Shown: positions 1 through 13,009 of the stretch, piece after piece
Position numbering within the stretch: the stretch's first letter is position 1
How the letters are laid out: each line of letters opens with the position of its first letter
DNA from: an uncultured Candidatus Poseidoniales archaeon
Lineage (GTDB): Archaea; Thermoplasmatota; Poseidoniia; Poseidoniales; Poseidoniaceae
Reading direction: 5' to 3'
NCBI GenBank assembly: GCA_905182185.1
Contig: CAJJAP010000005.1
Span: 1-64,000, forward strand
Length of the DNA: 64,000 nucleotides
The notes under the pieces: generated by a model
Database searches by the model: none
Seen by the model: only the letters and a program-made list of their open reading frames with translations
What the model was told of the DNA's origin: nothing
Program-made: the position numbers and the translations under genes

Positions 1-199
1 ATTGAAGCATTAGAGCTGTAGTCTGGATGAGCCCTTGAATTCCTAGGATGTATCGCTGGTCAGCCTCTCTCGCCTTGAGAGACTTCCACATCTCCTCCCA
101 GTCCTCGTGTGCGTGCCAATAGCGGCCTGTATTGAACTCGGTAATGCCGCCATCAAGCCACCTCTGCTCTTGTTTAGAAAGTGGGCATTTAACCGCCAT
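1..199 (-). CDS. DUF309 family protein, N-terminal part (runs off left edge)
   Basis: The gene reads leftwards from an ATG at 199 and is open to the first base of the window, giving 66 residues. The translation contains FNTGRYWHAHEDWEEMWK followed by the segment ILGIQGLIQTTALMLQ, which is the signature of the DUF309 family (small helical proteins; the conserved FNxGxYxxAHExxExxW block and the later GLIQ block). The family has no firmly assigned biochemical role. The C-terminal half lies outside the window. A second, degraded copy of this gene and of its upstream region lies at 3299-3780. The reading frame here has no break, so this copy is probably the functional one. Recognition rests on motif memory, not on a search. 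Confidence 0.72.
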   Translation of the reverse strand, partial: MAVKCPLSKQEQRWLDGGITEFNTGRYWHAHEDWEEMWKSLKAREADQRYILGIQGLIQTTALMLQ

Positions 200-274
200 G
201 GTTTGCGCTTCACTTGTTTGCTTTCAAGTTACGCCCCTACAGACCTTTATTGGTGAAAGTTTCGCTTGCGCTGT
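1..274. repeat. Long direct repeat, left copy (DUF309 gene start plus upstream region)
   Basis: Bases 1-274 align along their length to 3500-3780 in the same orientation. The aligned coding part differs by scattered substitutions and several one-base insertions in the right copy. The block 221-262, upstream of the DUF309 start, is identical to 3732-3773 over 42 bases. The two copies flank a GC-rich block of about 3.2 kb. Confidence 0.85.
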
Positions 275-315
275 TAATATCAAGTGATGTAATCAACTGT
301 GTAAAAGAATATGCT

Positions 316-338
316 CGGACCCTTGTGAGGCGAAACCC
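316..338 (+). promoter_or_regulatory. Promoter/leader element, copy A
   Basis: A 23-base block directly in front of the ATG at 339 matches 2781-2803 at about 20 positions (core CGGACCCTTGTG, then CGAAACCC). Both copies are preceded by an AT-rich TGTAAAA stretch that could serve as a TATA box. This suggests a shared transcription start or leader sequence for genes of this block. It is inferred from the repeat alone. Confidence 0.4.
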
Positions 339-479
339 ATGTTCTCCGCTCACCTTACCCAAGTAGCTCAACTCGAGGCCATCATTCGATCTGCCCAGGC
401 CTTGCTTCAAGCAGGACTCATCGATGAGGCAACAAGCCTCCTGAGCCGCCTTTTCGACCGAAGTTCAACCGAACATTAA
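339..479 (+). CDS. Small helical protein, 46 residues
   Basis: A short open frame begins at ATG 339, immediately after the leader element at 316-338, and stops at TAA 477-479. The product (begins MFSAHLTQVAQLEAIIRSAQ) is predicted to be almost wholly alpha-helical, with two amphipathic helices and a short polar tail; the pattern resembles a single TPR-like helical hairpin, but no family is recognised. Its codon use is GC-rich like the transporter downstream. The promoter-like element and compact leaderless arrangement support a real gene. It could still be a chance frame. Confidence 0.45.
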   Translation: MFSAHLTQVAQLEAIIRSAQALLQAGLIDEATSLLSRLFDRSSTEH

Positions 480-644
480 CCGAAGTTCGCATCGGTCCAC
501 ATCAACCTGGTCTGGACGACTCGCTGGGACCCGAAAATCCACGCCAGCGAAGACGCTCGCATGGACATGGGCATTTGGGATTGAGGCGGAACGCCTCAAA
601 CAGGCGTGAACAATCTTGAAGATGAACAGGGCCACCCTTCGTCC

Positions 645-2756
645 ATGCGACCGGTTCATCTTTTGTTGATGCTGGTCGTTCTCGCACCGGTTACCGGATG
701 CCTCGGCGGCGGTGGAGGTGGCTCAGAAACGACCGGCACCTACACGGTTGAGTCGACCATGACGTCCATTGAATTGGAGACTAAATCCGCTGACTATCAA
801 GACGAAGCAACCGTTGAATGGAGCCTTGATTCCTCAACCATCGTCGAAACCATTGAGGCGGCTGGTGGCCACGTTGTCGGCGTTCTCTTCTCCCTTACAT
901 ACGGTGAAGACGAGACCTCGGGAGGTCCGCTCTGTACGGGCGGCGAGGCCAATGCACCCGACACGATTACAGGAACTGCTACCAAGGGTGAATGGACCCT
1001 TTCGGGGTCGGGAGAAAATCCCGGGTCCCATGAGGTGAACCTAACTTGGCACAACGCTTCCCTTCTCTCAGGTGTTATCGAAGGATTGACCAAGAGTGAA
1101 ATCGAAGACCAGTTGGCCTTTGGTGAAGATGCATTGGGTGTCTACAATCTTGCTGTAACGGTTGATGCGGAGGCCTTCAACAGTGCCTTCTGTTCACACA
1201 ACGACGATGGCGAAGAGGTCGCCTCCGTGGTCAGTCTGCTCGTGTTGGACTTCACCATTCTCGATGAAGACGGTGAAGCGTTGACGGGCATGGCAGTCGG
1301 TGACGGTTCTCTCCCAGTCTTCTTGTTTGCAGGATGGATCTTCCCCGTTGTGTTCCTCGTCGGTTATGTCTCCACCAAGCAGCGCGACCGATTCCATCTT
1401 GACCTTGATTTTGGCGAACCGGAAACCGAGGTTGTTGAGGGCGAATCCACCTCCGACGGTGAAACCCTCGTCGACAGCTACCGTGCTCGCGTCATCACCC
1501 TTTCCGCCTTGTATGTGGCCCAAGGCGTTCCGTGGGGCTTCATCACCGTGACGATGGTCACTTTCCTCGCTGCAGAGGGTGCTGACGCCGGCGACCTCGC
1601 CTACCTGTTGACCCTCGGCACCTTGCCATGGTCATTCAAGTTCCTTTGGGGTCCCATCATTGACCGCTTCCAAGTACCGGCTCTTGGACGCCGTCGTCCC
1701 TGGATCCTCATCGCCCAAACGGGCATGGTGGCGCTGCTCGTGACCATGCTGATGGTTCCCGATTTGACCAATAACATCTCACTCCTCGGTGCGCTGTTCT
1801 TTGTCTACAACGTGTTCACGGCCCTGCAAGATGTTTCAACCGACGCCCTTGCTGTTGATGTGCTCCAATCTCACGAATTTGAGCGTGTCAACAGTTACAT
1901 GTTCACGGCCAAGTCCTTGGGTGGTATCATCGGCGGCGCAGGGCTCGGCACCATCATCGGTGTTGTTGGCATCCGCGGCGCCTTTTTGATTCAGATTCCG
2001 ATTTTGGTGGCCATCATGATGGTGCCGCTCTTCATGCGTGAACGTCCCGGTGAGAAGCGCTTCCCGTGGGACGAGGGTGACGCTGTTGAGAAGGTCGACG
2101 ATGCCGAGGAAGGCGCCGAGGAAGTTCGAGACTTTAGCGTCATTTTGGGCAACATCCGAACGGCCTTTTCGGTTCGTTCAGCCCAACTCGGTATCGTGGT
2201 CAGCCTCGTCATTTCCCTCGCCTTCATTCTCATTCCCATTCTTCCGTTGCTCTTCCTCCAAGAATTGGGTTGGACCCAAAAAGAGTTCAACGCCACCAAG
2301 GGCGGCATCATCCTTGTGGTGACGATGTTGGGGGCCATGGCCGGTGGCGAACTTGGTCGTCGCTTTGGGGGGAAATCCACGCTGATGTTTGCGGCCCTCA
2401 GTGCTTCATTGACAACCTTAACTTGGGGCATGCTCGATTTTATGTGGGGCGAAGGTTGGTTCATGATGTTAGTGTGGATTATTCACACCTTCCTCTGGGC
2501 CATCGTCTCCATCTGTGCCTATTCCCTGATGATGCGGGTCACCTGGGCCGAAGTGGGTGGAACGCAATTCACGGGCTACATGGCGATGATGAACCTCTCC
2601 GCCATCATCGGCTACCAGTTGGCGCCCATCTTTGCCGCCCAGTACGACTATCAGACCATCTTCTACATCGCTGCCGTGCTCGAAACATTCGTGATCTTCG
2701 CCGCCTTGTCCATCGACCCAGAGGAGACGGACCGGACGCTCAACACCGGGGTTTGA
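645..2756 (+). CDS. Lipoprotein domain fused to an AmpG-like MFS transporter
   Basis: With the ATG at 645 the product is 703 residues (an upstream GTG at 606 would add 13). Residues 1-19 form a lipoprotein signal ending in a lipobox-like PVTGC with Cys19, followed by a glycine run. Residues about 20-220 are a Thr/Glu-rich extracytoplasmic domain of unknown fold. A membrane segment follows near 220-243, then an acidic linker, and from about 278 a major facilitator domain with AmpG-type signatures: QGVPWGF in the first helix, LPWSFKFLWGPIIDRF, and LGRRRPW in the loop between helices 2 and 3. AmpG proteins import muropeptides in bacteria and relatives carry acetyl-CoA; the substrate here cannot be told. 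The fusion with a lipid-anchored outer domain is unusual. Codon use is richer in G and C than in genes from 3.9 kb onwards, which suggests transfer from another lineage. Confidence 0.85.
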   Translation: MRPVHLLLMLVVLAPVTGCLGGGGGGSETTGTYTVESTMTSIELETKSADYQDEATVEWSLDSSTIVETIEAAGGHVVGVLFSLTYGEDETSGGPLCTGGEANAPDTITGTATKGEWTLSGSGENPGSHEVNLTWHNASLLSGVIEGLTKSEIEDQLAFGEDALGVYNLAVTVDAEAFNSAFCSHNDDGEEVASVVSLLVLDFTILDEDGEALTGMAVGDGSLPVFLFAGWIFPVVFLVGYVSTKQRDRFHLDLDFGEPETEVVEGESTSDGETLVDSYRARVITLSALYVAQGVPWGFITVTMVTFLAAEGADAGDLAYLLTLGTLPWSFKFLWGPIIDRFQVPALGRRRPWILIAQTGMVALLVTMLMVPDLTNNISLLGALFFVYNVFTALQDVSTDALAVDVLQSHEFERVNSYMFTAKSLGGIIGGAGLGTIIGVVGIRGAFLIQIPILVAIMMVPLFMRERPGEKRFPWDEGDAVEKVDDAEEGAEEVRDFSVILGNIRTAFSVRSAQLGIVVSLVISLAFILIPILPLLFLQELGWTQKEFNATKGGIILVVTMLGAMAGGELGRRFGGKSTLMFAALSASLTTLTWGMLDFMWGEGWFMMLVWIIHTFLWAIVSICAYSLMMRVTWAEVGGTQFTGYMAMMNLSAIIGYQLAPIFAAQYDYQTIFYIAAVLETFVIFAALSIDPEETDRTLNTGV

Positions 2757-2780
2757 GTTATCTCCTATAATGTAAAATTC

Positions 2781-2803
2781 CGGACCCTTGTGCATCGAAA
2801 CCC
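2781..2803 (+). promoter_or_regulatory. Promoter/leader element, copy B
   Basis: Second copy of the element at 316-338, located 24 bases after the transporter stop and about 100 bases before the zinc-ribbon gene at 2901. It follows an AT-rich CTATAATGTAAAATT stretch. It probably marks the start of the transcript for the gene at 2901. Confidence 0.4.
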
Positions 2804-2900
2804 TTTGGATTAGTGAGTATGCATAGTAACTACCAATGTATACACGAAACTGACACATTCTCTGAATACAAATCAAATACATGCAGTCGAAGCGCCCAAT

Positions 2901-3161
2901 ATGCGCTTGGAATGGCCCGTCTATGCATTTACTGCCGGTGTTTTCCTCGCCTTTGCTCTAAGTGTTCAGTTTCTCTCTCTTGGCACCTTTACCGTCGTTG
3001 GCCTGTTCGTGCTGCTGACCGTGGCCTATGCCTGGGTCGCCTGGCTGATGATCAAGCAAAAGGCCGTCCTCGAACTTCACGCCTACATCAACTGCAATAC
3101 GTGCGGTGAGTTGACGCCTTCACAAGGCAAGCACTGCATGAACTGCGGCGCCGACTTGTAG
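2901..3161 (+). CDS. Small membrane protein with C-terminal zinc ribbon
   Basis: The 86-residue product has two hydrophobic helices (about residues 5-27 and 30-50) and then a cytoplasmic zinc-ribbon with two cysteine pairs, CNTCG near residue 69 and CMNCG near residue 80. Such short two-helix proteins with a terminal zinc ribbon are common in archaea and have no defined role. The gene shares the higher GC content of the preceding transporter and has the shared leader element upstream, so the two may belong to one transferred block. Confidence 0.7.
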   Translation: MRLEWPVYAFTAGVFLAFALSVQFLSLGTFTVVGLFVLLTVAYAWVAWLMIKQKAVLELHAYINCNTCGELTPSQGKHCMNCGADL

Positions 3162-3298
3162 TCAAACATACAACGGTGGCCCTTGTAGTCGTCTGCAGAT
3201 GTAACGGTAGCGTTTGCACCGACCCACTGCAACCCCTTTGATTTGTCAATACTTGAGCAATGGGTATTCGGATTTCGCAATCCCTCAGTCAGATTAGA

Positions 3299-3704
3299 CT
3301 ATCCGTGTTTCGGTTTGAGCCCCCAAGTGGGTTCCTCGGCGGATTGCTTGCGGGAAAGATAGCCCAGCACGTGCTTGCAAAGCACTTTTGGAATGTCCAC
3401 ACACCATAACATCTCGAACAAGGGTGATTCAGGCGTGCCTATTTTATCGGTCAGTTTACCCCACATCTTGACGATGCCTCGGGTTTTTTGCTCGCTCATA
3501 TTGAAGCATTAGAGCTCCAGTCTGGATGAGCCCTTGAATTCCTAGGATGATATCAGCTGGTCAGCCTGCTCTCGCCTTGAGATGACTTCCACATCTCCTC
3601 CCAGTCACTCGTGTGCGTGCCTATAGCGGCCTGTATTCAACGCGGTTCTGCCGCCATCAAGCCACCTTTGCTCTTGTTCAGAAAGTGGGCTTTTCAACCG
3701 CCAT
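3299..3704 (-). pseudogene. Degraded second copy of the DUF309 gene
   Basis: Reading leftwards from the ATG at 3704, the sequence aligns to the intact copy at 1-199, but the frame is broken at once (stop after eight codons) and again by several extra bases in the stretch 3540-3610. The last part, 3299-3499, is open for 66 codons in one frame (contains KLTDKIGTPESPLFEMLW) and most likely represents the C-terminal half of the DUF309 protein, of which the N-terminal half is seen in the left copy. The extra bases are not confined to homopolymers, which favours true decay over read error. The upstream 42-base block is nevertheless unchanged. Confidence 0.75.
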
Positions 3705-3780
3705 GGTTTGCGCTGGGTGCTACTTCGTGTGCTTTCAAGTTACGCCCCTACAGACCTTTATTGGTGAAAGTTTGGCTTGT
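3500..3780. repeat. Long direct repeat, right copy
   Basis: Counterpart of 1-274, in direct orientation, covering the 5' half of the DUF309 pseudogene and its upstream region. It ends about 80 bases before the SPFH gene. Together with the left copy it brackets the GC-rich block 300-3300 and could allow its loss or duplication by homologous recombination. Confidence 0.85.
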
Positions 3781-3861
3781 GAGTCTAAACTTGAACACCC
3801 AATCTATCAGTGAATAAATAATGCAGGAAATCTTAATTATTAACGAATTTACCCCCTTTAC

Positions 3862-4800
3862 ATGCAGCCAGCGCCAGTTCCAATAACTCCTGAGCATAAA
3901 TTGTCCAATGATGAAATAATGTTCAAAGATGCCAGAATAAAAACACTGAATGGGTTTTTGGGTTTGGCCATTCAATGGATTGCTGTACCAGTCATTTTCG
4001 TGTGTATGTTCGTCACTTACGCGTGGACACCATTGATGGTTATTGGAATAATATTACAAATCGCAATTGCAATTGTTTGGTTTCTAATGTTCAACAGCTA
4101 TTTAATCATAAATCCGAATGAAGGTGCTGCCATCCAATTTTTTGGTGAATATGTAGGAACAGTTGATGAGCAAGGATTCCATTTCTTCATTAATCCATTA
4201 TACGAAAAACAAAAAATATCTCTAAGAATTAGAAACTTTGAATCGGCCAAACTCAAGGTCAATGACGTTAATGCAAATCCAATTGAAATCGCCGCAGTAG
4301 TAGTTTGGAAGGTTGTAGACACCGCCGAGGCTTTGTTTGAAGTTGATAATTATCAGAATTATGTTCAAATCCAAAGTGAAGCAGCACTCCGTGCTATGGC
4401 AACAAAATATCCCTATGATATCATCGAAGAAAAAGACATAGGCGGAATTGCACTATCAAGTCACCAAGAAGTCATTGCCCAAGAACTGCAAATTTCAGTT
4501 GAAGCAAGATTGAAGAGAGCAGGAATTCAAGTCTTAGAGGCTAGAATCAGCCACTTAGCATATTCACAAGAGATCGCACAAGCAATGCTTCGCCGCCAAC
4601 AAGCAAGCGCAGTGGTTGCAGCACGTAGTGAAATCGTCAAAGGTGCAGTTGGAATGGTTGAGATGGCTTTAGAGCAATTAAGTGCTAAAAACATCATCGA
4701 ATTAGATGAAGATAAGAAGGCTTCAATGGTTAGTAATCTACTAGTAGTATTATGTTCGGAAACCGACACGACACCAATCGTAAACACCGGTTCTCTATAA
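3862..4800 (+). CDS. SPFH / band 7 domain membrane protein
   Basis: The 312-residue product has a short cytoplasmic N-terminus, two hydrophobic stretches (about residues 30-55 and 55-80), then NPNEGAAIQFFGEYVGT and an SPFH (stomatin/prohibitin/flotillin) domain to about residue 260, with the late EARISHLAYSQEIAQAMLRRQQA helix region typical of slipins. SPFH proteins form ring-like scaffolds on membranes and organise protease or channel partners. No NfeD or FtsH-type partner lies next to it here; the next gene, on the other strand, ends seven bases downstream. Codon use is AT-rich, unlike the block to the left. Confidence 0.9.
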   Translation: MQPAPVPITPEHKLSNDEIMFKDARIKTLNGFLGLAIQWIAVPVIFVCMFVTYAWTPLMVIGIILQIAIAIVWFLMFNSYLIINPNEGAAIQFFGEYVGTVDEQGFHFFINPLYEKQKISLRIRNFESAKLKVNDVNANPIEIAAVVVWKVVDTAEALFEVDNYQNYVQIQSEAALRAMATKYPYDIIEEKDIGGIALSSHQEVIAQELQISVEARLKRAGIQVLEARISHLAYSQEIAQAMLRRQQASAVVAARSEIVKGAVGMVEMALEQLSAKNIIELDEDKKASMVSNLLVVLCSETDTTPIVNTGSL

Positions 4801-4806
4801 TATTCG

Positions 4807-5868
4807 CTAATTGCTAACAGCACTCGATTCATGTGCTGAAAATCTGGCTGAAATAATACAGTGGTCTGATGCTTCTAGTTCACAATCGGTTGAGAATGAA
4901 CCAAGGTACTCATCAGACCCGCCATCGCCGATAATCATCCGGTCATATGCACAAGATGATGATTCAGCAGTGTTGGTATTGGTTCCATCGGGAATTATCC
5001 ATTGATAGTCTCCATTGCGAATAGCCAATTCATCTAATTCTGAAGACCTTGCATAACTGCAATCTGCATTCAGGTCTCCAAGCAAAATGAAGTCGTCTTC
5101 ACCAGGATATTGGAACTTAGCCCATTCGAATACATTTACCAGTGCTTCAGTCTCATTCAATACATCATCTGGGTCAATATGTAAGGTAATTAATACAAAG
5201 GTGTGGTTGAACTCAACAGATACAAACCTTGCTGCAAATGGTTCCCTGGTATATTCACAGTCATTATTTGGATAGTGATTACCAGAATCTAAGGATCTTA
5301 TGGTTTTGACATCATAGTAGAAAGCATATTGTTCCGAAATTTGGGAACTTGACTTGTTTTCACAAAATGCTCCAGTCCGATTGGATAGAACCATTCCAAA
5401 CTCTGAGATTTCGTCAATTCCATCTTGGAGGATGTAGGGTGCTGTTTGTTGTATATCTTTTATTTCCTGAACAGCGACGATATCATAGTTGCTAATTTTA
5501 CCTGCCATCTCAGCGACTCTCGCCTCATCTTCAGCACCTGAAGGGCCGAATCTCTTCACATTCCATGAAGCGATTTCAAGATCATGTAGGCAGTCTCCGT
5601 CTCTGATTCCAGATTCGTTAAGTACGGATAGTTCTTGATCACTCGAAAATAAGGATGGGTTTTCTGAACAATCAGATACCTTTTCAACAATATCTGCTAC
5701 TGGGGAAAAGGGTGCAAGAACTACCATTAAGGCCACACAAACAGAAACTATGCCAAATCCTAATCCGAGATGTATCCAACGAGTAGTCCCCTCGTTTTCT
5801 AAGGCCAAAATCCGCTTTTCAATAGTGGATTGCCGAAAGCCACCTGAACTCTTAACCAGCTCTGTCAT
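4807..5868 (-). CDS. Membrane-anchored endonuclease/exonuclease/phosphatase (DNase I-like) enzyme
   Basis: The 353-residue product has a cytoplasmic N-terminus, one membrane helix (about residues 33-55), and an outer catalytic domain of the endonuclease/exonuclease/phosphatase fold. Expected catalytic positions are visible: SWN at 101-103, QE with Glu135, His230 in TLHIDP, GDLNAD with Asp265 and Asn267, and SDH with Asp335 and His336. Several cysteines (67, 93, 169, 203, 270, 306, 329, 337) could form disulfides, in keeping with an extracytoplasmic location. The likely role is breakdown of nucleic acid outside the membrane; phosphodiesterase activity on other substrates is possible in this fold. 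It converges with the SPFH gene. Confidence 0.85.
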   Translation of the reverse strand: MTELVKSSGGFRQSTIEKRILALENEGTTRWIHLGLGFGIVSVCVALMVVLAPFSPVADIVEKVSDCSENPSLFSSDQELSVLNESGIRDGDCLHDLEIASWNVKRFGPSGAEDEARVAEMAGKISNYDIVAVQEIKDIQQTAPYILQDGIDEISEFGMVLSNRTGAFCENKSSSQISEQYAFYYDVKTIRSLDSGNHYPNNDCEYTREPFAARFVSVEFNHTFVLITLHIDPDDVLNETEALVNVFEWAKFQYPGEDDFILLGDLNADCSYARSSELDELAIRNGDYQWIIPDGTNTNTAESSSCAYDRMIIGDGGSDEYLGSFSTDCELEASDHCIISARFSAHESSAVSN

Positions 5869-6072
5869 GATGTACCCTCAATGACAAAAGGTATCAACAA
5901 TCCGCAATCAATACCATCTTTTCGTAGTTAAATTAAGGCTTGTGAGCCTGACTCGAAAAGAAAATAGATTGTACAACAAGGAAGAGAACTAACTTTCAAG
6001 TGTATCCCTAAGCAAAAGCAAATGAAGATAATGATGTTTAAATCATTCTCGTTTATCGTGAACGTGCTGTGG

Positions 6073-6927
6073 TTATTGAGAAAGACGCTCTACTAGATCT
6101 GCTTTCTTGCCGCCAACAGGTAGTCCCGCTGCCTTGCAACGTTCTTTGAGTTGCGCTACAGATAGAGAAGATAGGTCTTCGTCGTGGTTGCAGTTCTCAT
6201 CGTGAACATGCTCTTCTTCTGTTTCCTCAGTTTCTTCAACACCGAATCCACGAGGTTCGTGAACTTCAACGAATGAAACCTTGGAAACATCAGTGATTGC
6301 ATCACGGATAGTTGTTACCAAACGGAACTTGAGCATTGCTGCATTGGTATCAAAGAGCATTGTTTGTGGTAGAGTGATAGCAAGGTCATCGCCAGTGAAT
6401 TCTACGCCAAAGTCAGTGTGACCTGTGTTAGATTCTAGTAGTGCTGTAACCTTTTCTTCCTTTCCTTCTACAACTGCGATGATCTTGAAACTGTACTTCA
6501 AAGTTTTTCCAGCCATTGGGTGGTTGTAATCAATACGAGCGCGTCCTGCAGCAAGGTAAGATAGAGTTCCTTGCTTCCCACCGATGTTTACCGGTGCTCC
6601 GATGTAAAGTGACTTAGGGTCTTTTACAGATTGAAGGAGTTTGTCGATACTAACTGTGTCGATTAACTCTGAATCCTTCTCACCATATCCGTCTTCAGGA
6701 GCGATAGTGCATTCTGTTTCTTTGCCTACTTTTGCTCCTGCTAATGCTTCTTCGAAACCTGCGATTAGCATTCCTCCACCAACGATACAGACCATTGGTG
6801 AATACGTACGCCCTTCTTGGTGAACTTCGTGTTCTTTAGCGACCTCTTCGCGAGTAGTTTCGATAATAGTACCGGTTTCTCCGTTATATAGTTCGTAATC
6901 GACGTGGATAATTGTTCCTTCTTCCAT
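6073..6927 (-). CDS. Long archaeal FKBP-type peptidyl-prolyl isomerase fused to a SAP domain
   Basis: The start is taken at ATG 6927, six bases after a GGAGG ribosome site. The 284-residue product begins with an FKBP domain with an inserted flap (residues 1-155; GGMLIAGFEEALAGAKVG, PEDGYG, and YNHPMAGKTL), followed by the extra C-terminal domain found in long archaeal FKBPs (about 155-228). Then comes an acidic, His-containing linker (229-250) and a SAP motif (251-284, SSLSVAQLKERCKAAGLPVG, KADLVERL). FKBPs speed proline isomerisation and act as chaperones; SAP motifs bind DNA or RNA. The combination suggests a folding factor tied to nucleoid or transcript. It lies downstream of ccmF on the same strand, 70 bases away. 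Confidence 0.88.
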   Translation of the reverse strand: MEEGTIIHVDYELYNGETGTIIETTREEVAKEHEVHQEGRTYSPMVCIVGGGMLIAGFEEALAGAKVGKETECTIAPEDGYGEKDSELIDTVSIDKLLQSVKDPKSLYIGAPVNIGGKQGTLSYLAAGRARIDYNHPMAGKTLKYSFKIIAVVEGKEEKVTALLESNTGHTDFGVEFTGDDLAITLPQTMLFDTNAAMLKFRLVTTIRDAITDVSKVSFVEVHEPRGFGVEETEETEEEHVHDENCNHDEDLSSLSVAQLKERCKAAGLPVGGKKADLVERLSQ

Positions 6928-6997
6928 GTATAAGCCTCCCTTAGGGGTAGTTCGGCGACCGACGCCCCCTTGATAATGGCATTGGCTGAAAGAAGGT

Positions 6998-9568
6998 TCA
7001 CTCCTCTTGCTCCATATGGGATTCTTCAAGGCTCAGTGGGCTCTTTTTTAGTTTTGAAACGATTGCGATTTGAGCCATACCGATTAACATCAAACTCCAG
7101 CCGGACCAAACAAGATGAGAGTTCGGCAAATCATAGATAGTCACTCTGACCATTTTGATAGAGTCTAATCCATCTGTTGTCGCCTGTTGCATCAAGCCAT
7201 TTGCTTGTGAACCATCAAAGATGAATACTATATCTCCGTGCCATCGTGATAATGTATCAACTTCAGAACGTGCTGTTCCAGATGAGTCGAATCTAAGCAT
7301 CCCGGGCTCTACAATAGCGATTTGAGTGAAATCTATTGTTCCATCTGCATTTTCAGTAAACTCGTAAACAGCGATTCTAATACCAACATAGCCATCTCCG
7401 ACTTCAAGCCCATCATCTTTAAGAATAATTTCTAAGAATTCGAAACCGTAATCGCCATTGATAGTAATTTCATCTTGAACCAATGAAACGCGATGGCTTG
7501 CATCTCCCCTATTGACCAGTGTAGTAGTGAAAATATGGCCGACCATTAGCAATATCAAGCCGAGGTGGACTACATGAGCTCCAACTGGGATTCTCTTCAA
7601 AATAGATGTTTTTGATTTGCGTTGAATCTGGGTGATTACCTCATTGACCATAGGCGCTATCGTGACCAAAAGCATTGGTAATGAAATCCACGCGATTGAA
7701 CCTCTGGTTATGTATTCAGAAACTGTGGTCTCTGCATCGCTTCCCAGCCATTCGGGAGCAAAAATTGCAAGGGCTATTGAAACGATTAGAACCGCCAATG
7801 CCACTGAAAGAGTAGTCTTTGGTTGCTCTTTTCTCATCGTATAGGTAAACATTGCAAGGGCGATAGCAAGCATGAACGGTGCACCGTATAATTCGTGAGC
7901 GGTCAGATTGATCGAGTCAATGCTAGCCAACAAGATTGCTAGTGTTAAGATCAAATATAATCCCGAAACAACAACAGTGGCCCAAAGTGCTAATCTCTGT
8001 TGGTCTCTGCGAGAAGTTATGTTAAAGCGTTTAGTAGATTTTGTTTTATCCTCTTCAGCCAATAGCCAAGGTGATACAAATACAATCAATACTGCTGCTG
8101 CAACTGGAAGTTCCACCAATCCGGCCCAGGCAGAAGATAGAGCCAACATTATTCCTGCACTTGCCCAACCCCATTGTTTGGTTGGATTTACTGAATAATA
8201 TAATGGGGTAAAGAAAATCAAACAGACTAATGAAAAGAATACATCTCCGTTGATAAAACTCAATATAATTGGAGTAACCATCAAAATTGGTACGATTTTA
8301 GCAGCTGGAAATTGCCATTCTAATGGCAAGCGGTTTTCTTCTTCCCTATCATTTGAAATATCAAACGCCAACTGCAAATATACAACTATTGGGAAAATGA
8401 ATACTGGAATAAATGAATATATCTCCAGTTCAAATAAGAATGCGAATGTGGCTAATAACAATGGTACAGCGAAGATATAAATGCCATTTTGATTAATTTT
8501 GCTAGTTCTAATTGTACGCCTCTGCATGGTTAGCCAGACTCCTATGAAGAGCAAAATAATCATCAGATAAGATATTACTTCCACCCCTGCTGAACCATCT
8601 CTTAGAACCATGAAACGACCGAATACCTCGGAAGGGGGAGTTCCTCCTTCATTGACTACGAAAGTATGTACTGATGATGCCCATACTCCTCCTGACCTAG
8701 TGACCAGTGTTGCGAAAATTGCTAGTCCACCTGCAACCAATCCAGATCCCATCCAGATATTATCGGAGACCTTGCCCGGGCGAGTTCTCAAATGAACGAT
8801 AACCACTAATGCTAGCCAAGGCAAAAAGGAACCTGTTTCAACTGGGTCCCATGCCCAATATCCGCCCCAATCGAGAATCAAATAGGCCCATAGCCCACCT
8901 AGGCCAACACCAAGTGTTGTGAAAAACAATGCAGGGCGAGCGACTGTTAGGATACGAGAATCGAGTTCTTGTCTATCACTGGAGTAAAAACTGGAGATAG
9001 AAATTGCTGCAATATGCAGGCATAAAGAATATGATAAGAAAATAAGTGGTGGATGTATAACCATCAAATCGGTTTGCAATAGTTCATTTAAGCCCTGTCC
9101 TAGCCAGTTATACTCATTGACTCTAAATGGGTCTAAGGTCAGTGAAATTATCAACAGTAACAAACTGAAACCATGAACTAATCTGAGCCTTAATTGATGA
9201 GCACTAGGGCCTTGTTCGACTTCTACATTTTCACCCGACAATGGTTTACGCCAAATCCAAGATAGTAATGACATCCAAAGAACCCACAGTAAAATCGGCC
9301 CTTCTCTAGCGGCCCAAGTGGCGGCAAAGCGATACTTGAGGGGGAGAGCGGCTCCTCCGTATGCTGCTACGTGTACAATCGATGTATCATTGACCAAGAA
9401 GCGGCTTGACAGTGCAATAAACGGTACCGCCAAAGCAAAATGACAAAGAAAAGACAATAATTTACTCCTCTCATGCAACTTTGGCTGCAAAATGAGGAGG
9501 GCGGCAGCAAAAACTGCCAGCCACAATGTCAGTGTCCACACAGACGAGGCTAACCACCACACCTTCAT
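6998..9568 (-). CDS. ccmF: Cytochrome c maturation heme lyase CcmF
   Basis: The 856-residue polytopic membrane protein carries the tryptophan-rich heme-handling motif WGGYWAWDPVETGS near residue 235, conserved flanking segments (HPPLIFLSYS, GRFMVLRDG) and a C-terminal large outer domain before the last helix. CcmF joins heme to apocytochrome c in System I. It is longer than most bacterial forms (about 650 residues). No ccmA-E, ccmG or ccmH gene lies beside it. The gene is upstream of the FKBP-SAP gene and both may share a transcript; a folding factor would fit a cytochrome maturation context, although the FKBP lacks a signal peptide. Confidence 0.93.
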   Translation of the reverse strand: MKVWWLASSVWTLTLWLAVFAAALLILQPKLHERSKLLSFLCHFALAVPFIALSSRFLVNDTSIVHVAAYGGAALPLKYRFAATWAAREGPILLWVLWMSLLSWIWRKPLSGENVEVEQGPSAHQLRLRLVHGFSLLLLIISLTLDPFRVNEYNWLGQGLNELLQTDLMVIHPPLIFLSYSLCLHIAAISISSFYSSDRQELDSRILTVARPALFFTTLGVGLGGLWAYLILDWGGYWAWDPVETGSFLPWLALVVIVHLRTRPGKVSDNIWMGSGLVAGGLAIFATLVTRSGGVWASSVHTFVVNEGGTPPSEVFGRFMVLRDGSAGVEVISYLMIILLFIGVWLTMQRRTIRTSKINQNGIYIFAVPLLLATFAFLFELEIYSFIPVFIFPIVVYLQLAFDISNDREEENRLPLEWQFPAAKIVPILMVTPIILSFINGDVFFSLVCLIFFTPLYYSVNPTKQWGWASAGIMLALSSAWAGLVELPVAAAVLIVFVSPWLLAEEDKTKSTKRFNITSRRDQQRLALWATVVVSGLYLILTLAILLASIDSINLTAHELYGAPFMLAIALAMFTYTMRKEQPKTTLSVALAVLIVSIALAIFAPEWLGSDAETTVSEYITRGSIAWISLPMLLVTIAPMVNEVITQIQRKSKTSILKRIPVGAHVVHLGLILLMVGHIFTTTLVNRGDASHRVSLVQDEITINGDYGFEFLEIILKDDGLEVGDGYVGIRIAVYEFTENADGTIDFTQIAIVEPGMLRFDSSGTARSEVDTLSRWHGDIVFIFDGSQANGLMQQATTDGLDSIKMVRVTIYDLPNSHLVWSGWSLMLIGMAQIAIVSKLKKSPLSLEESHMEQEE

Positions 9569-9607
9569 GTCGTTTTCTTATCTTAACCCACATAGGGTAC
9601 TGGAGGA

Positions 9608-10846
9608 TTACCAGCCAAAGTGCTTAGCCCTTGAATATCCAAAGGAGAGAAGAACTGGAATTACCCGCTTGGTCAGCAGTATTGGCTTTTTGAACAATAT
9701 TTTTATCCCGATTCCTAATTTCTGTAGCGGAGACATATTGCCTAACTCTTCCGGCAGACAGTGAGCCATAACCGACATTTCTTCATCACTCAAGTCATAC
9801 AATGCAGTCTTACCTTTGAGGATTTTATTGTATGGTGGGAAACGCTTTAACCAAGCCTTTTGATATACCATCAAGCGTTTTTGAGAAAGATCGTTTTCTG
9901 CAATCGCTTGTGTAATTACTTGTGCAGCCTCTCGTCCCGACCAAAGTGCAAGATGCGAGCCTCCCTCAAATAGAGGAGAAGTGAAACCTGCAGCATCACC
10001 AACTAAGATGACCCCGGTTTCAACTGTGATTTCTCTTGGCCCAGAGATTGGGATTGTGCCGCCGAATGGCTTAATTTTAATTCCATCCTTGCGCCAAGGA
10101 GGATTTACTTTGGGTTTACCGGCCAAGTATGTGTCTTGAATAAAGTCCTCTAGATACTTTATTGCACCTTTCTTATCGGTCGTTACCAAACCAACATTTG
10201 CCCTTCCACCCTCTTTGGGGATCATCCAAACATAACCATGTGGAGAATATTTAGGCCAGAGATAAAAGTCAAGGTATCCATCATTTGGAACATCAAGCAT
10301 TTCGTATTGGAATCCTGCTATGACTTCAACTTCAGTCTTCATATCAAGTATTTTTGAAGCCGCACCTGCCACTCCAGAGGCATCGATTACAGCGCGGCAT
10401 TCAATTGGAAATTCATTTCCTCTCCCGTCAATTTTCCAATTGGTAAATTGATTTTCGCTATTGAAAACTCTCTCCATCGAAGTTACCCTGTGAGAGAGTA
10501 GTAATTCCGCACCGATATCGCATGCTTCCTGAACCAACCATCTTTCAAAAAGATGCTTGTCCAAAACATATCCTGTTTCAGAAAGAAGCTTCTTTGTTCC
10601 GTCTGGGAAAATAATCCGTATTCCTTTTACATCAAGGGCTTTGACATGATCTGGCAATTCTAAATCCAAATTATCGACTGCCATTTGGCTAAGGCACTCA
10701 CCACAATGAACTGGCGTCCCTACTTCCGGGTCAGCTTCTACAATTATTGTTGAAAGTCCTGCTCTCCTCAGATGAAGAGCAGCGGAACCACCACCTGGAC
10801 CAGCACCTATTACGAGAACATCGCAGTAACTCACTTCGCCCCCCAT
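9608..10846 (-). CDS. Geranylgeranyl reductase family flavoprotein
   Basis: The 412-residue product starts with an FAD-binding dinucleotide fold (VIGAGPGGGSAALHL, residues 12-26, then EADPEVG), a Cys pair motif HCGECLS near residue 48, and the later GDAAGFTSPLFEGG segment that binds the flavin. This is the pattern of geranylgeranyl and digeranylgeranylglycerophospholipid reductases, which saturate the isoprenoid chains of archaeal lipids or quinones. The neighbouring UbiD-UbiA pair, read divergently from 10940, makes prenylated quinones, so side-chain saturation of a quinone is an alternative to lipid hydrogenation. Confidence 0.88.
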   Translation of the reverse strand: MGGEVSYCDVLVIGAGPGGGSAALHLRRAGLSTIIVEADPEVGTPVHCGECLSQMAVDNLDLELPDHVKALDVKGIRIIFPDGTKKLLSETGYVLDKHLFERWLVQEACDIGAELLLSHRVTSMERVFNSENQFTNWKIDGRGNEFPIECRAVIDASGVAGAASKILDMKTEVEVIAGFQYEMLDVPNDGYLDFYLWPKYSPHGYVWMIPKEGGRANVGLVTTDKKGAIKYLEDFIQDTYLAGKPKVNPPWRKDGIKIKPFGGTIPISGPREITVETGVILVGDAAGFTSPLFEGGSHLALWSGREAAQVITQAIAENDLSQKRLMVYQKAWLKRFPPYNKILKGKTALYDLSDEEMSVMAHCLPEELGNMSPLQKLGIGIKILFKKPILLTKRVIPVLLSFGYSRAKHFGW

Positions 10847-10939
10847 AGCCTTCGGTTGTAAAGGGCAGCCCTTGAAACCAACGGTCTTTATTCATTGCAG
10901 AAAGTTGTAAAAATTAGCAAATATCTGTGAAAACTAACA

Positions 10940-13009
10940 ATGCGAGAAGTGAAAGGTGACACTCCCCGTAGGGGAGTTATGGCGTGGGTAACGATGGGGC
11001 GATGGCTTGACCATCTCAAATCTCAAGGAGAGTTGCTCTACATAGACCGCCCAGTGGATGTTGAGTATGAAGCGGGCGCTATTGCAGAACTATTAGTAAA
11101 AAATAATGGCCCCGCAGTACTCTTTTCTCAACCAAGATTAGCCGATGGTTCAATTTCTAAAATACCACTGGTGATGAATTTATTCGGAGGCGAGGAAAGA
11201 ACAATGCAAGCACTTGGAGTTAGCCGAGAAGATGAAATTGGCCAGCGGATGGTTGCTATGATGAAACCAGACATTGGATTATTTTTCAAAAAGCCATGGA
11301 AAGCATTGCCGCTACTCAAAGACGCAATGGCAATGCCGCCAAAGAAAAAGCGAATAGGTGCTTGTCAACGCGTCAAGTTACCACTAGATTTAACAAAATT
11401 ACCGATTCCTAAAACATGGCCCTTAGATGGAGGAAACTTCGTCACCCTACCCCTAGTGATCACAAAAAATCCAAAAACTGGAGAACACAATATGGGTATG
11501 TATCGGGCTCAAGTATTCGGCCCAAAGGAAATAGGTCTACATTGGCAAATACACAAACATGGAGCTGACCATGCCGCTATGCTTGGAAAAGATGCAAAAA
11601 TGCCAGTGGCGATTTGTATTGGAGGGCCGCCAGAACTAATCTTTTCAGCAATTTCCCCCCTACCTGACAATTTATCCGAGTATCAATTTGCCGGAATTCT
11701 CGGACGAAAATCCCTACCAATAACCAAAGCATTAACTCAGGATTTGATGGTTCCTGCTAATGCTGATATAGTCATAGAAGGATATTGCATTCCTAGTGAA
11801 ACTCGTACCGAAGGGCCTTTTGGTGACCATTTCGGATTCTATTCCCTAACTGGACAATACCCTGTTCTACACGTTACTGCGATCACTGCAAGAAAGGATG
11901 CAGTATTGCCTGCAACAATCGTAGGCCTTCCTCCAATGGAAGATGGATATTTGGGTGAAGCGATTGGCCGTCAATTTTCTCCTGTGCTGAAGTTCCAGCA
12001 TCGAGATGTTAGCAGTGTTCATCTACCGATGGAGACCGGCTTCCACAACCTTGCCATCGTTGCCAGTAAGCAGAGATATCCAAGACAAGCGAGAAAAACT
12101 GCTCTCGGTTTATTAGGTGCTGGACAAATGATGTTCCTAAAATCGATAATTACAATCGATGAGAACCAAGACCCAAGTGATTTGGAAGCGTTGTTGGATT
12201 GCCTAAATGACAAAGTAGACCCTGCTACCGACATTATAGTCCTACCAGGCCAAGTTGCTGATGCATTAGAAGCTGCGAGTAATTACGAAAATGTCCATGA
12301 TAAATTAATCATTGATGCTACTACTTTGGCCAAGAACGATCCGCGTGCCGATAACGAGCCTTTGGAAGGCTCATTCCCTCAGCACACTCCTAACTGGAGG
12401 CGCCATGCTGGCACTGAATTAGCATCACAATATCCTGCACAAAAACCTGATGACATCCCTTCGTTTATCAGAGAAGTATTGCGACTTGATTTAGTAAGCG
12501 ATGCGAGAATGTTACGAGATTCGATGTTGGTTGTTAGCACATCTATTGCAGGAAGACCTGATGTCAAAACAGGTTGTGACCCTTCACAATTGAATGATGA
12601 AGAAAACGCCCTTCTAGATTCCCAAGAATTAGCCAGAAGAGAACAAATTATTCAATTGCGAAATTCAATTTGGCAATTGGACAACGAAAATGCACTTCGT
12701 TGGTTATTTATTACCGATGATGACCTAGATTTGCATGTTGCAGGAGCAAAGAAGAGATTGCTTTGGCAACTTACTTGTAGATTTGATGTTGAAAGAGGAT
12801 TGTCCTTCGACGAAGATAAGGCTAGATTATGCTGGAATGCAACTACGCCAATTCCAAGCAAAGCGCATGGAACTCGTCGCTGGCCTGCGATTACACTACA
12901 CGATGAAGAGACATTACAGAAGGTTGCATCACATCCCGAATTAGCCGGCTATAGTTGGCCTCAGCACCTTACTTTCCATGATTCAGCAACTTCAAAGAGG
13001 GGTGAGTAA
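10940..13009 (+). CDS. UbiD-family decarboxylase (long form)
   Basis: UbiD enzymes use prenylated FMN to remove a carboxyl group from aromatic or unsaturated acids. The product shows LKSQGELLYID at the start, NMGMYRAQVF, and SETRTEGPFGDHFGFYS with the catalytic glutamate region. At 689 residues it is about 190 longer than typical UbiD; the C-terminal third still shows UbiD-like FITDDDLDLHV. The start may instead be ATG 10979, which has a GGGGAG site five bases ahead; ATG 10940 would be leaderless. The stop codon is directly followed by the ATG of the UbiA-type gene, so the two are co-translated and act in the same quinone-type pathway. The prenyl-FMN supplier UbiX is not in the window. Confidence 0.87.
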   Translation: MREVKGDTPRRGVMAWVTMGRWLDHLKSQGELLYIDRPVDVEYEAGAIAELLVKNNGPAVLFSQPRLADGSISKIPLVMNLFGGEERTMQALGVSREDEIGQRMVAMMKPDIGLFFKKPWKALPLLKDAMAMPPKKKRIGACQRVKLPLDLTKLPIPKTWPLDGGNFVTLPLVITKNPKTGEHNMGMYRAQVFGPKEIGLHWQIHKHGADHAAMLGKDAKMPVAICIGGPPELIFSAISPLPDNLSEYQFAGILGRKSLPITKALTQDLMVPANADIVIEGYCIPSETRTEGPFGDHFGFYSLTGQYPVLHVTAITARKDAVLPATIVGLPPMEDGYLGEAIGRQFSPVLKFQHRDVSSVHLPMETGFHNLAIVASKQRYPRQARKTALGLLGAGQMMFLKSIITIDENQDPSDLEALLDCLNDKVDPATDIIVLPGQVADALEAASNYENVHDKLIIDATTLAKNDPRADNEPLEGSFPQHTPNWRRHAGTELASQYPAQKPDDIPSFIREVLRLDLVSDARMLRDSMLVVSTSIAGRPDVKTGCDPSQLNDEENALLDSQELARREQIIQLRNSIWQLDNENALRWLFITDDDLDLHVAGAKKRLLWQLTCRFDVERGLSFDEDKARLCWNATTPIPSKAHGTRRWPAITLHDEETLQKVASHPELAGYSWPQHLTFHDSATSKRGE

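Follow-up and report, generated by a model that had tools for sequence, protein, structure and literature searches.

A patchwork of duplicated and acquired genes at a contig end of a Poseidoniales archaeon, and a possible family of single-gene cassettes with TA-centred hairpin ends

Introduction

Integron cassettes, recombined at attC sites and known also from archaeal integrons (PMC9668308), move as single genes, form arrays, pass between species and end in palindromic, hairpin-rich recombination sequences, in all of which they resemble the units described here. The attC crossover, however, lies at G/TT, whereas ours lies at TA; the units have ends on both sides of the gene and occur in both orientations, unlike integron cassettes; and the recombinase found nearby is a serine recombinase and not, as in integrons, a tyrosine recombinase. 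The main text of the archaeal integron paper (PMC9668308) mentions neither Thermoplasmatota nor Poseidoniales. Gene movement by serine recombinases at a 2-bp core, as we propose for these units, is the mode of the SCC cassettes (Ccr), but the units are of about 0.4-1.2 kb and usually hold one gene, unlike SCC cassettes, and the candidate enzyme is about half the size of CcrB (262 against about 540 amino acids). MITEs and the REP, BIME and ERIC repeats are, like the ends discussed below, dispersed intergenic palindromes with TA ends, whereas our units carry whole genes, have mosaic ends and count a recombinase gene among those carried. Mobile DNA in the same hosts (i.e., the Poseidoniales) has been described as Charybdis elements, which are circular, about 4.6 kb long and integrate beside tRNA genes with an integrase (PMC12324425), in contrast to single-gene TA units. 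A literature search among open-licence papers found none on Poseidoniales with integrons or serine recombinases, and no description of the cassettes.

The window analysed here comprises the first 64 kb of contig C5 in an uncultured Poseidoniales genome (63% complete, 11 contigs), its position 1 being base 1 of the contig; among publicly available genomes, the close relatives of this one belong to Poseidoniaceae, genus Poseidonia (marine group II). We consider it reasonably probable that the first kilobases of this window (Table 1) are a hypervariable intergenic patchwork assembled by at least three separate events, among them the arrival of a TA-bounded cassette, probably moved by a serine recombinase.

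Table 1. Features at the beginning of the window, with strand and the basis on which each was assigned
Positions	Strand	Feature	Basis
1..199	-	DUF309 copy 1, first 66 codons, intact, cut by contig end	PF03745
200..311	-	Upstream region of DUF309 copy 1, homologous to relatives	G001 match
316..338	+	23-bp direct repeat, left copy	
336..2785	+	Horizontally acquired segment	97.0% to L031, dS 0.05
339..479	+	46-aa helical ORF, repeated in some relatives	ORF from sequence; copies in G064
606..2756	+	Lipoprotein-like N-terminal domain + MFS transporter (AmpG/BT1-like), 716 aa	MFS_1, BT1
2781..2803	+	23-bp direct repeat, right copy	
2831..3209	+	Zinc-ribbon cassette, TA to TA	Homology boundaries, flanks in C4, G016, G060, G064, others
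2901..3161	+	86-aa membrane protein, C-terminal CxxC..CxxC zinc ribbon	
3208..3273	+	Dispersed hairpin-rich end (G-end), TA core, 66 nt	
3280..3790	-	DUF309 copy 2, pseudogene at ancestral address	Frameshifts, tree, order in G016
3862..4800	+	Band_7 (SPFH), conserved neighbour	PF01145 86.5 bits

Results and Discussion

The zinc-ribbon unit and its dispersed ends

The zinc-ribbon unit (379 bp) runs from a TA at 2831-2832 to another at 3208-3209, both of them inside hairpin-rich ends. Homology to it begins at 2829-2831 in many genomes; its left flank reads TA-CC(G/A) and TATACACG, its right flank ACAACGG with a hairpin and then CGG-TA, and the two ends have a short inverted motif in common. The encoded protein, whose matches to Zn-ribbon families are weak and below cut-off, is 84-98% identical in amino acids across relatives. 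A second copy of the unit (97% identical) lies on contig C4 of the same assembly, and many genomes hold close copies, the neighbours of which differ in nearly all cases; in C4, G016 and G064, inverted copies of a dispersed repeat with the foot GGTAGCG adjoin it. The zinc-ribbon gene behaves like a member of an apparently undescribed family of mobile single-gene cassettes across the Poseidoniales, and would itself be a small mobile cassette with its TA ends inside hairpin-rich sequences.

A profile of the dispersed end, built from 28 copies, gives 7-19 matches per genome at E<=0.1, and the end is present in 33 of the 60 sister-family genomes (10 of 11 genera), some of its versions being near identical between families. 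The TA is found in 85 of 89 unique copies. Copies placed head to head form palindromes of about 200 nt with CTAG at the centre, and other copies come after a second hairpin (such as CAAAGGGCCCCC) that finishes in CGG or GGG. Such mosaic, TA-centred hairpin repeats, seen across Poseidoniales (e.g., window 3208-3273, L241, L246, L238, L239 and L161), are not in Rfam, and a covariance-model search of window positions 1-12000 gave no Rfam match at E<=1. The consensus RNA fold of the repeat is weak (7 pairs, almost no covariation), and we treat the repeat as DNA. Gene orientation relative to the ends is weakly non-random; the idea that ends always lie 5' of genes was given up after a control (31/63 downstream, 24/63 the other way, 37% at random positions). 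A search of viral contigs gave no exact match to the end pattern, and a link to a nearby tRNA was sought and none found. Many copies lie about 0.1-5 kb from contig ends in G000, G008, G010, G014, G016, G044 and G064, which suggests that the repeat sites break assemblies.

TA-bounded units elsewhere and an empty site

Units of this kind are not confined to the zinc ribbon. A 1.3-kb query around the RDD gene (PF06271) of G060, searched in 63 genomes, finds a unit in G003, G075 and G021 with 93-97% homology from TA-GCG to GG-TA-CC; in G020 (98%) the right boundary is identical, the G016 copy (94%) lacks its left part, and the homology of the adjoining query segment to other places breaks off at the identical TA. 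The RDD unit has two different ends, which are hairpins rather than matching terminal repeats, and its left end is unlike that of the zinc-ribbon unit (TA-CCG). Two units stand tail to tail in G003, between DsrE-like and aminotransferase-like genes (names given from sequence), at a site that is empty in G004, where the joined flanks of G003 continue uninterrupted (91% over 505 nt) through AGAGGG-TA-CCCATTG with one TA. Different inserts start at the identical TA in G071 and G075, so that one and the same intergenic TA is filled in three genomes and empty in a fourth (L237, about 3012-4783, against L312, L325 and L326); G028 and G023 also have inserts at this gene junction, but with no such ends, and these were left out of the count. 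Three successive ends of the same orientation with one ORF between each are seen in G031, and arrays of units show mixed orientation. The filled site has a TA at both ends and the empty site a single TA, the same picture that site-specific recombination at a TA core gives, and the boundaries fall at the TA within GGTAGCG or GGTACC, not in the attC core (GTTRRRY). On this view, units with such ends would hold one gene each, be shared by several species with exact TA boundaries and adjoin one another in both orientations; that they go in exactly at a TA is seen for one insertion.

A candidate recombinase

An ORF of G016 directly after one of these ends encodes a serine recombinase of 262 aa (PF00239 and PF07508), with 106 bits against a cut-off of 23.3 for PF00239 and the YxRVS motif present (AYIRVSS). 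Its best NCBIfam match, CcrB, misses the cut-off (84.5 against 900 bits), as does IS607 (25.1 against 110 bits), and the nearest solved chain is the TP901-1 integrase. An end lies upstream of each of its four closest homologues (three in G016 and, in G026, one truncated at the end of its contig), whereas the more distant homologues examined have no end upstream; the window's own genome, 63% complete, has no recombinase homologue. The three recombinases of G016 belong to one subfamily (L323 2598-3383 and 4687-5472, L243 5911-6669), and their upstream ends are on the same strand.

Strand exchange by serine recombinases takes place at a central 2-bp core, which fits the TA, and a palindromic TA core would permit both orientations. 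Judging by this association, the serine recombinase encoded in some units is likely to be the mover of the units, and would exchange strands at the 2-bp TA core. The wider reading, i.e., a scattered system of mostly single-gene cassettes shared by the Poseidoniales, with hairpin-rich ends around a TA, moved by a small serine recombinase that is itself carried in such a cassette and exchanged freely between species and families, is one that we hold tentatively and with slightly more doubt than belief.

The units could instead be MITE-like passengers of a TA-targeting DDE transposase (of the Tc1/mariner/IS630 type), and a TA at both ends of the insert with one TA in the empty site is the mark of that family too. 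We find this rather unlikely, since the ends of the RDD unit do not match each other as terminal repeats and the one enzyme of recombination identified in a unit is a serine recombinase, the enzyme that the homologue searches covered. Plain homologous recombination between dispersed repeats is improbable: repeats that are near identical across the order would offer the homology, but the boundaries are found at the TA instead of being scattered at random over the repeat, and the empty site has one TA and no repeat.

Duplication and decay of DUF309

Compared with itself by BLAST, the window holds a direct repeat (1-268 against 3500-3779, 90.7% identical over 280 columns, E 3e-102) that is far beyond chance. 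The first-pass annotation had reported it as 274 bases at 1-274 and 3500-3780; the repeat itself stands, but its left edge is an artefact of the contig end and the alignment contains 1-base gaps. Because the contig edge truncates copy 1, the figure of 274 bases is a lower bound. Even so, copy 1 of DUF309 matches PF03745 (42.6 bits against a cut-off of 27), its coding part aligns to relatives without gaps, and window positions 1-311 match G001 at 90%. Copy 2 spans the whole gene (about 3299-3699) and shows six 1-base insertions and one 6-base insertion absent from copy 1 and the relatives, in addition to substitutions at otherwise invariant sites; with frameshifts and stops in every frame it is a pseudogene, and the whole-genome PF03745 search did not detect it as a domain. 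The earlier description of one intact and one decayed copy is accurate in this sense, copy 1 being open over its visible 66 codons. Between 3500 and 3720 the indels of copy 2 relative to copy 1 are insertions only, which is odd for a decaying gene. A structured RNA was considered for copy 2 and rejected, its folding being no better than that of shuffles on both strands (z 0.12 and 1.22).

The two copies are sisters in the gene tree (UFBoot 89), with G016 next and the branch of copy 2 about six times longer. The duplication at the DUF309 locus, suggested at first pass, therefore took place in the lineage of the window, and copy 1 did not arrive with a distant donor; by this tree, the event is probably younger than the split from G016. 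Band_7 directly adjoins DUF309 in G016 and lies 1.6 kb from it in G001, so that copy 2 is the one that keeps the ancestral address. Gene tree and sequence together establish the duplication and the decay, in which a DUF309 beside Band_7 would have been duplicated within the lineage, the new copy remaining intact and the old one decaying.

DUF309 is found in 25 of 63 genomes of the genus, 24 of which have a single copy detectable by a search that broken copies would escape; G030 has two, on separate contigs. The transporter adjoins DUF309 in no genome searched. Relatives with one DUF309 and no transporter insert, which the first-pass annotation proposed to look for, do therefore exist, and the opposite outcome (i.e., the same two-DUF309 order and composition in all close relatives) was sought and did not occur.

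A recently transferred transporter

The transporter matches MFS_1 (114.4 bits against a cut-off of 33.4) and BT1 with 56 bits. Its likeness to AmpG muropeptide transporters extends over residues 294-699 and stays below the cut-off of TIGR00901 (125.4 against 350 bits), and at its N-terminus, unlike AmpG, it carries an additional lipoprotein-like domain (about 290 residues), which is kept in Poseidoniales homologues and unmatched in planctomycete ones. The 46-aa ORF in front of it has a weak TPR-like match, below cut-off. This ORF is a repeated element in G064 (C13 and C21), and its counterpart in L034 (10278-10415) lies downstream of the transporter, not upstream as in the window.

At 97% identity and a dS of 0.05, the segment is far closer to L031, a locus of the Fram Strait MAG G060, than the rest of that genome would predict, since over 19.5 kb of adjacent window DNA the identity of G060 is 64-78% and that of the sister genomes G001 and G016 is 84-93%; the transporter of G016, for its part, is only 76% identical to that of the window. 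The segment was therefore transferred recently, and the foreign origin first suspected for the transporter is demonstrated. Six further loci are 91-95% identical to it. Versions of at least 91% occur in at least four other neighbourhoods (L031; L032/L036; L033; L034/L035/L045), and more distant clades hold the transporter in a fixed one. On the right, homology stops at the terminator of the gene itself (2785 in 4/7); on the left its end varies.

Composition points the same way with less force. Third-position GC is 0.66 in the transporter, 0.70 in the zinc ribbon and 0.58 in DUF309 copy 1, against 0.33-0.38 in the ordinary low-GC genes from 3.86 kb onward, and the jump reported at first pass is thus real. 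Nevertheless, the transporter has the GC of its neighbours in relatives with conserved synteny (L044, L046, L048, L060-L064) and is richer than its surroundings in other settings (L049, L043, L040 and the window); GC-richness was for this reason dropped as sole proof of foreign origin and is used only as support.

The 23-bp direct repeat (20/23 identical, a pattern expected 0.00 times in shuffles), absent from the first-pass annotation, brackets the transporter segment only. A similar motif lies upstream of DUF309 also where the transporter is not its neighbour, and the left copy may therefore represent the old target; the transporter would have been inserted by recombination at this repeat. 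The segment 336-2785, now between the 23-bp repeats, is a recent acquisition from another Poseidonia-type species.

The joins at 311-336 and 2785-2830 are seen on the window's contig alone, at the contig end, and one could suspect that 1-2830, or part of it, was wrongly joined from another species or strain in the sample, all the more so as the stretch opens a contig (its first 3 kb), belongs to an incomplete genome and lies in a repeat. Such a misassembly is nonetheless hardly likely: copy 1 of DUF309 is sister to copy 2, which puts the lineage's own DNA on both sides of the transporter, and related segments do move in other assembled genomes. Very doubtful, finally, is the proposal that transporter and zinc ribbon arrived at the DUF309 locus as one block, whether through tandem duplication or through homologous exchange, and left one copy broken, since, for all that DUF309 sequence lies on both sides and both genes are about 97% identical to G060, the order zinc-ribbon/DUF309/Band_7 is already present in the sister genome G016 and thus predates the event, each of the two has its own boundaries and its own relatives, and in G060 they are separated by about 6 kb and oppositely oriented.

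Conclusions

The patchwork reading of separate events gives, at the locus itself, a well-documented and ordinary kind of genome plasticity: a lineage-specific duplication, decay at the old address and the passage of one transporter gene between species whose remaining DNA is only about 70% identical. It is a snapshot of gene gain and loss in abundant uncultured archaea of the surface ocean. The cassette ends are the more interesting result. If TA-bounded cassettes are confirmed, they would constitute a gene-shuffling system in archaea other than the integron, and could help to explain both the frequent assembly breaks near such sites and the large genome differences between relatives.
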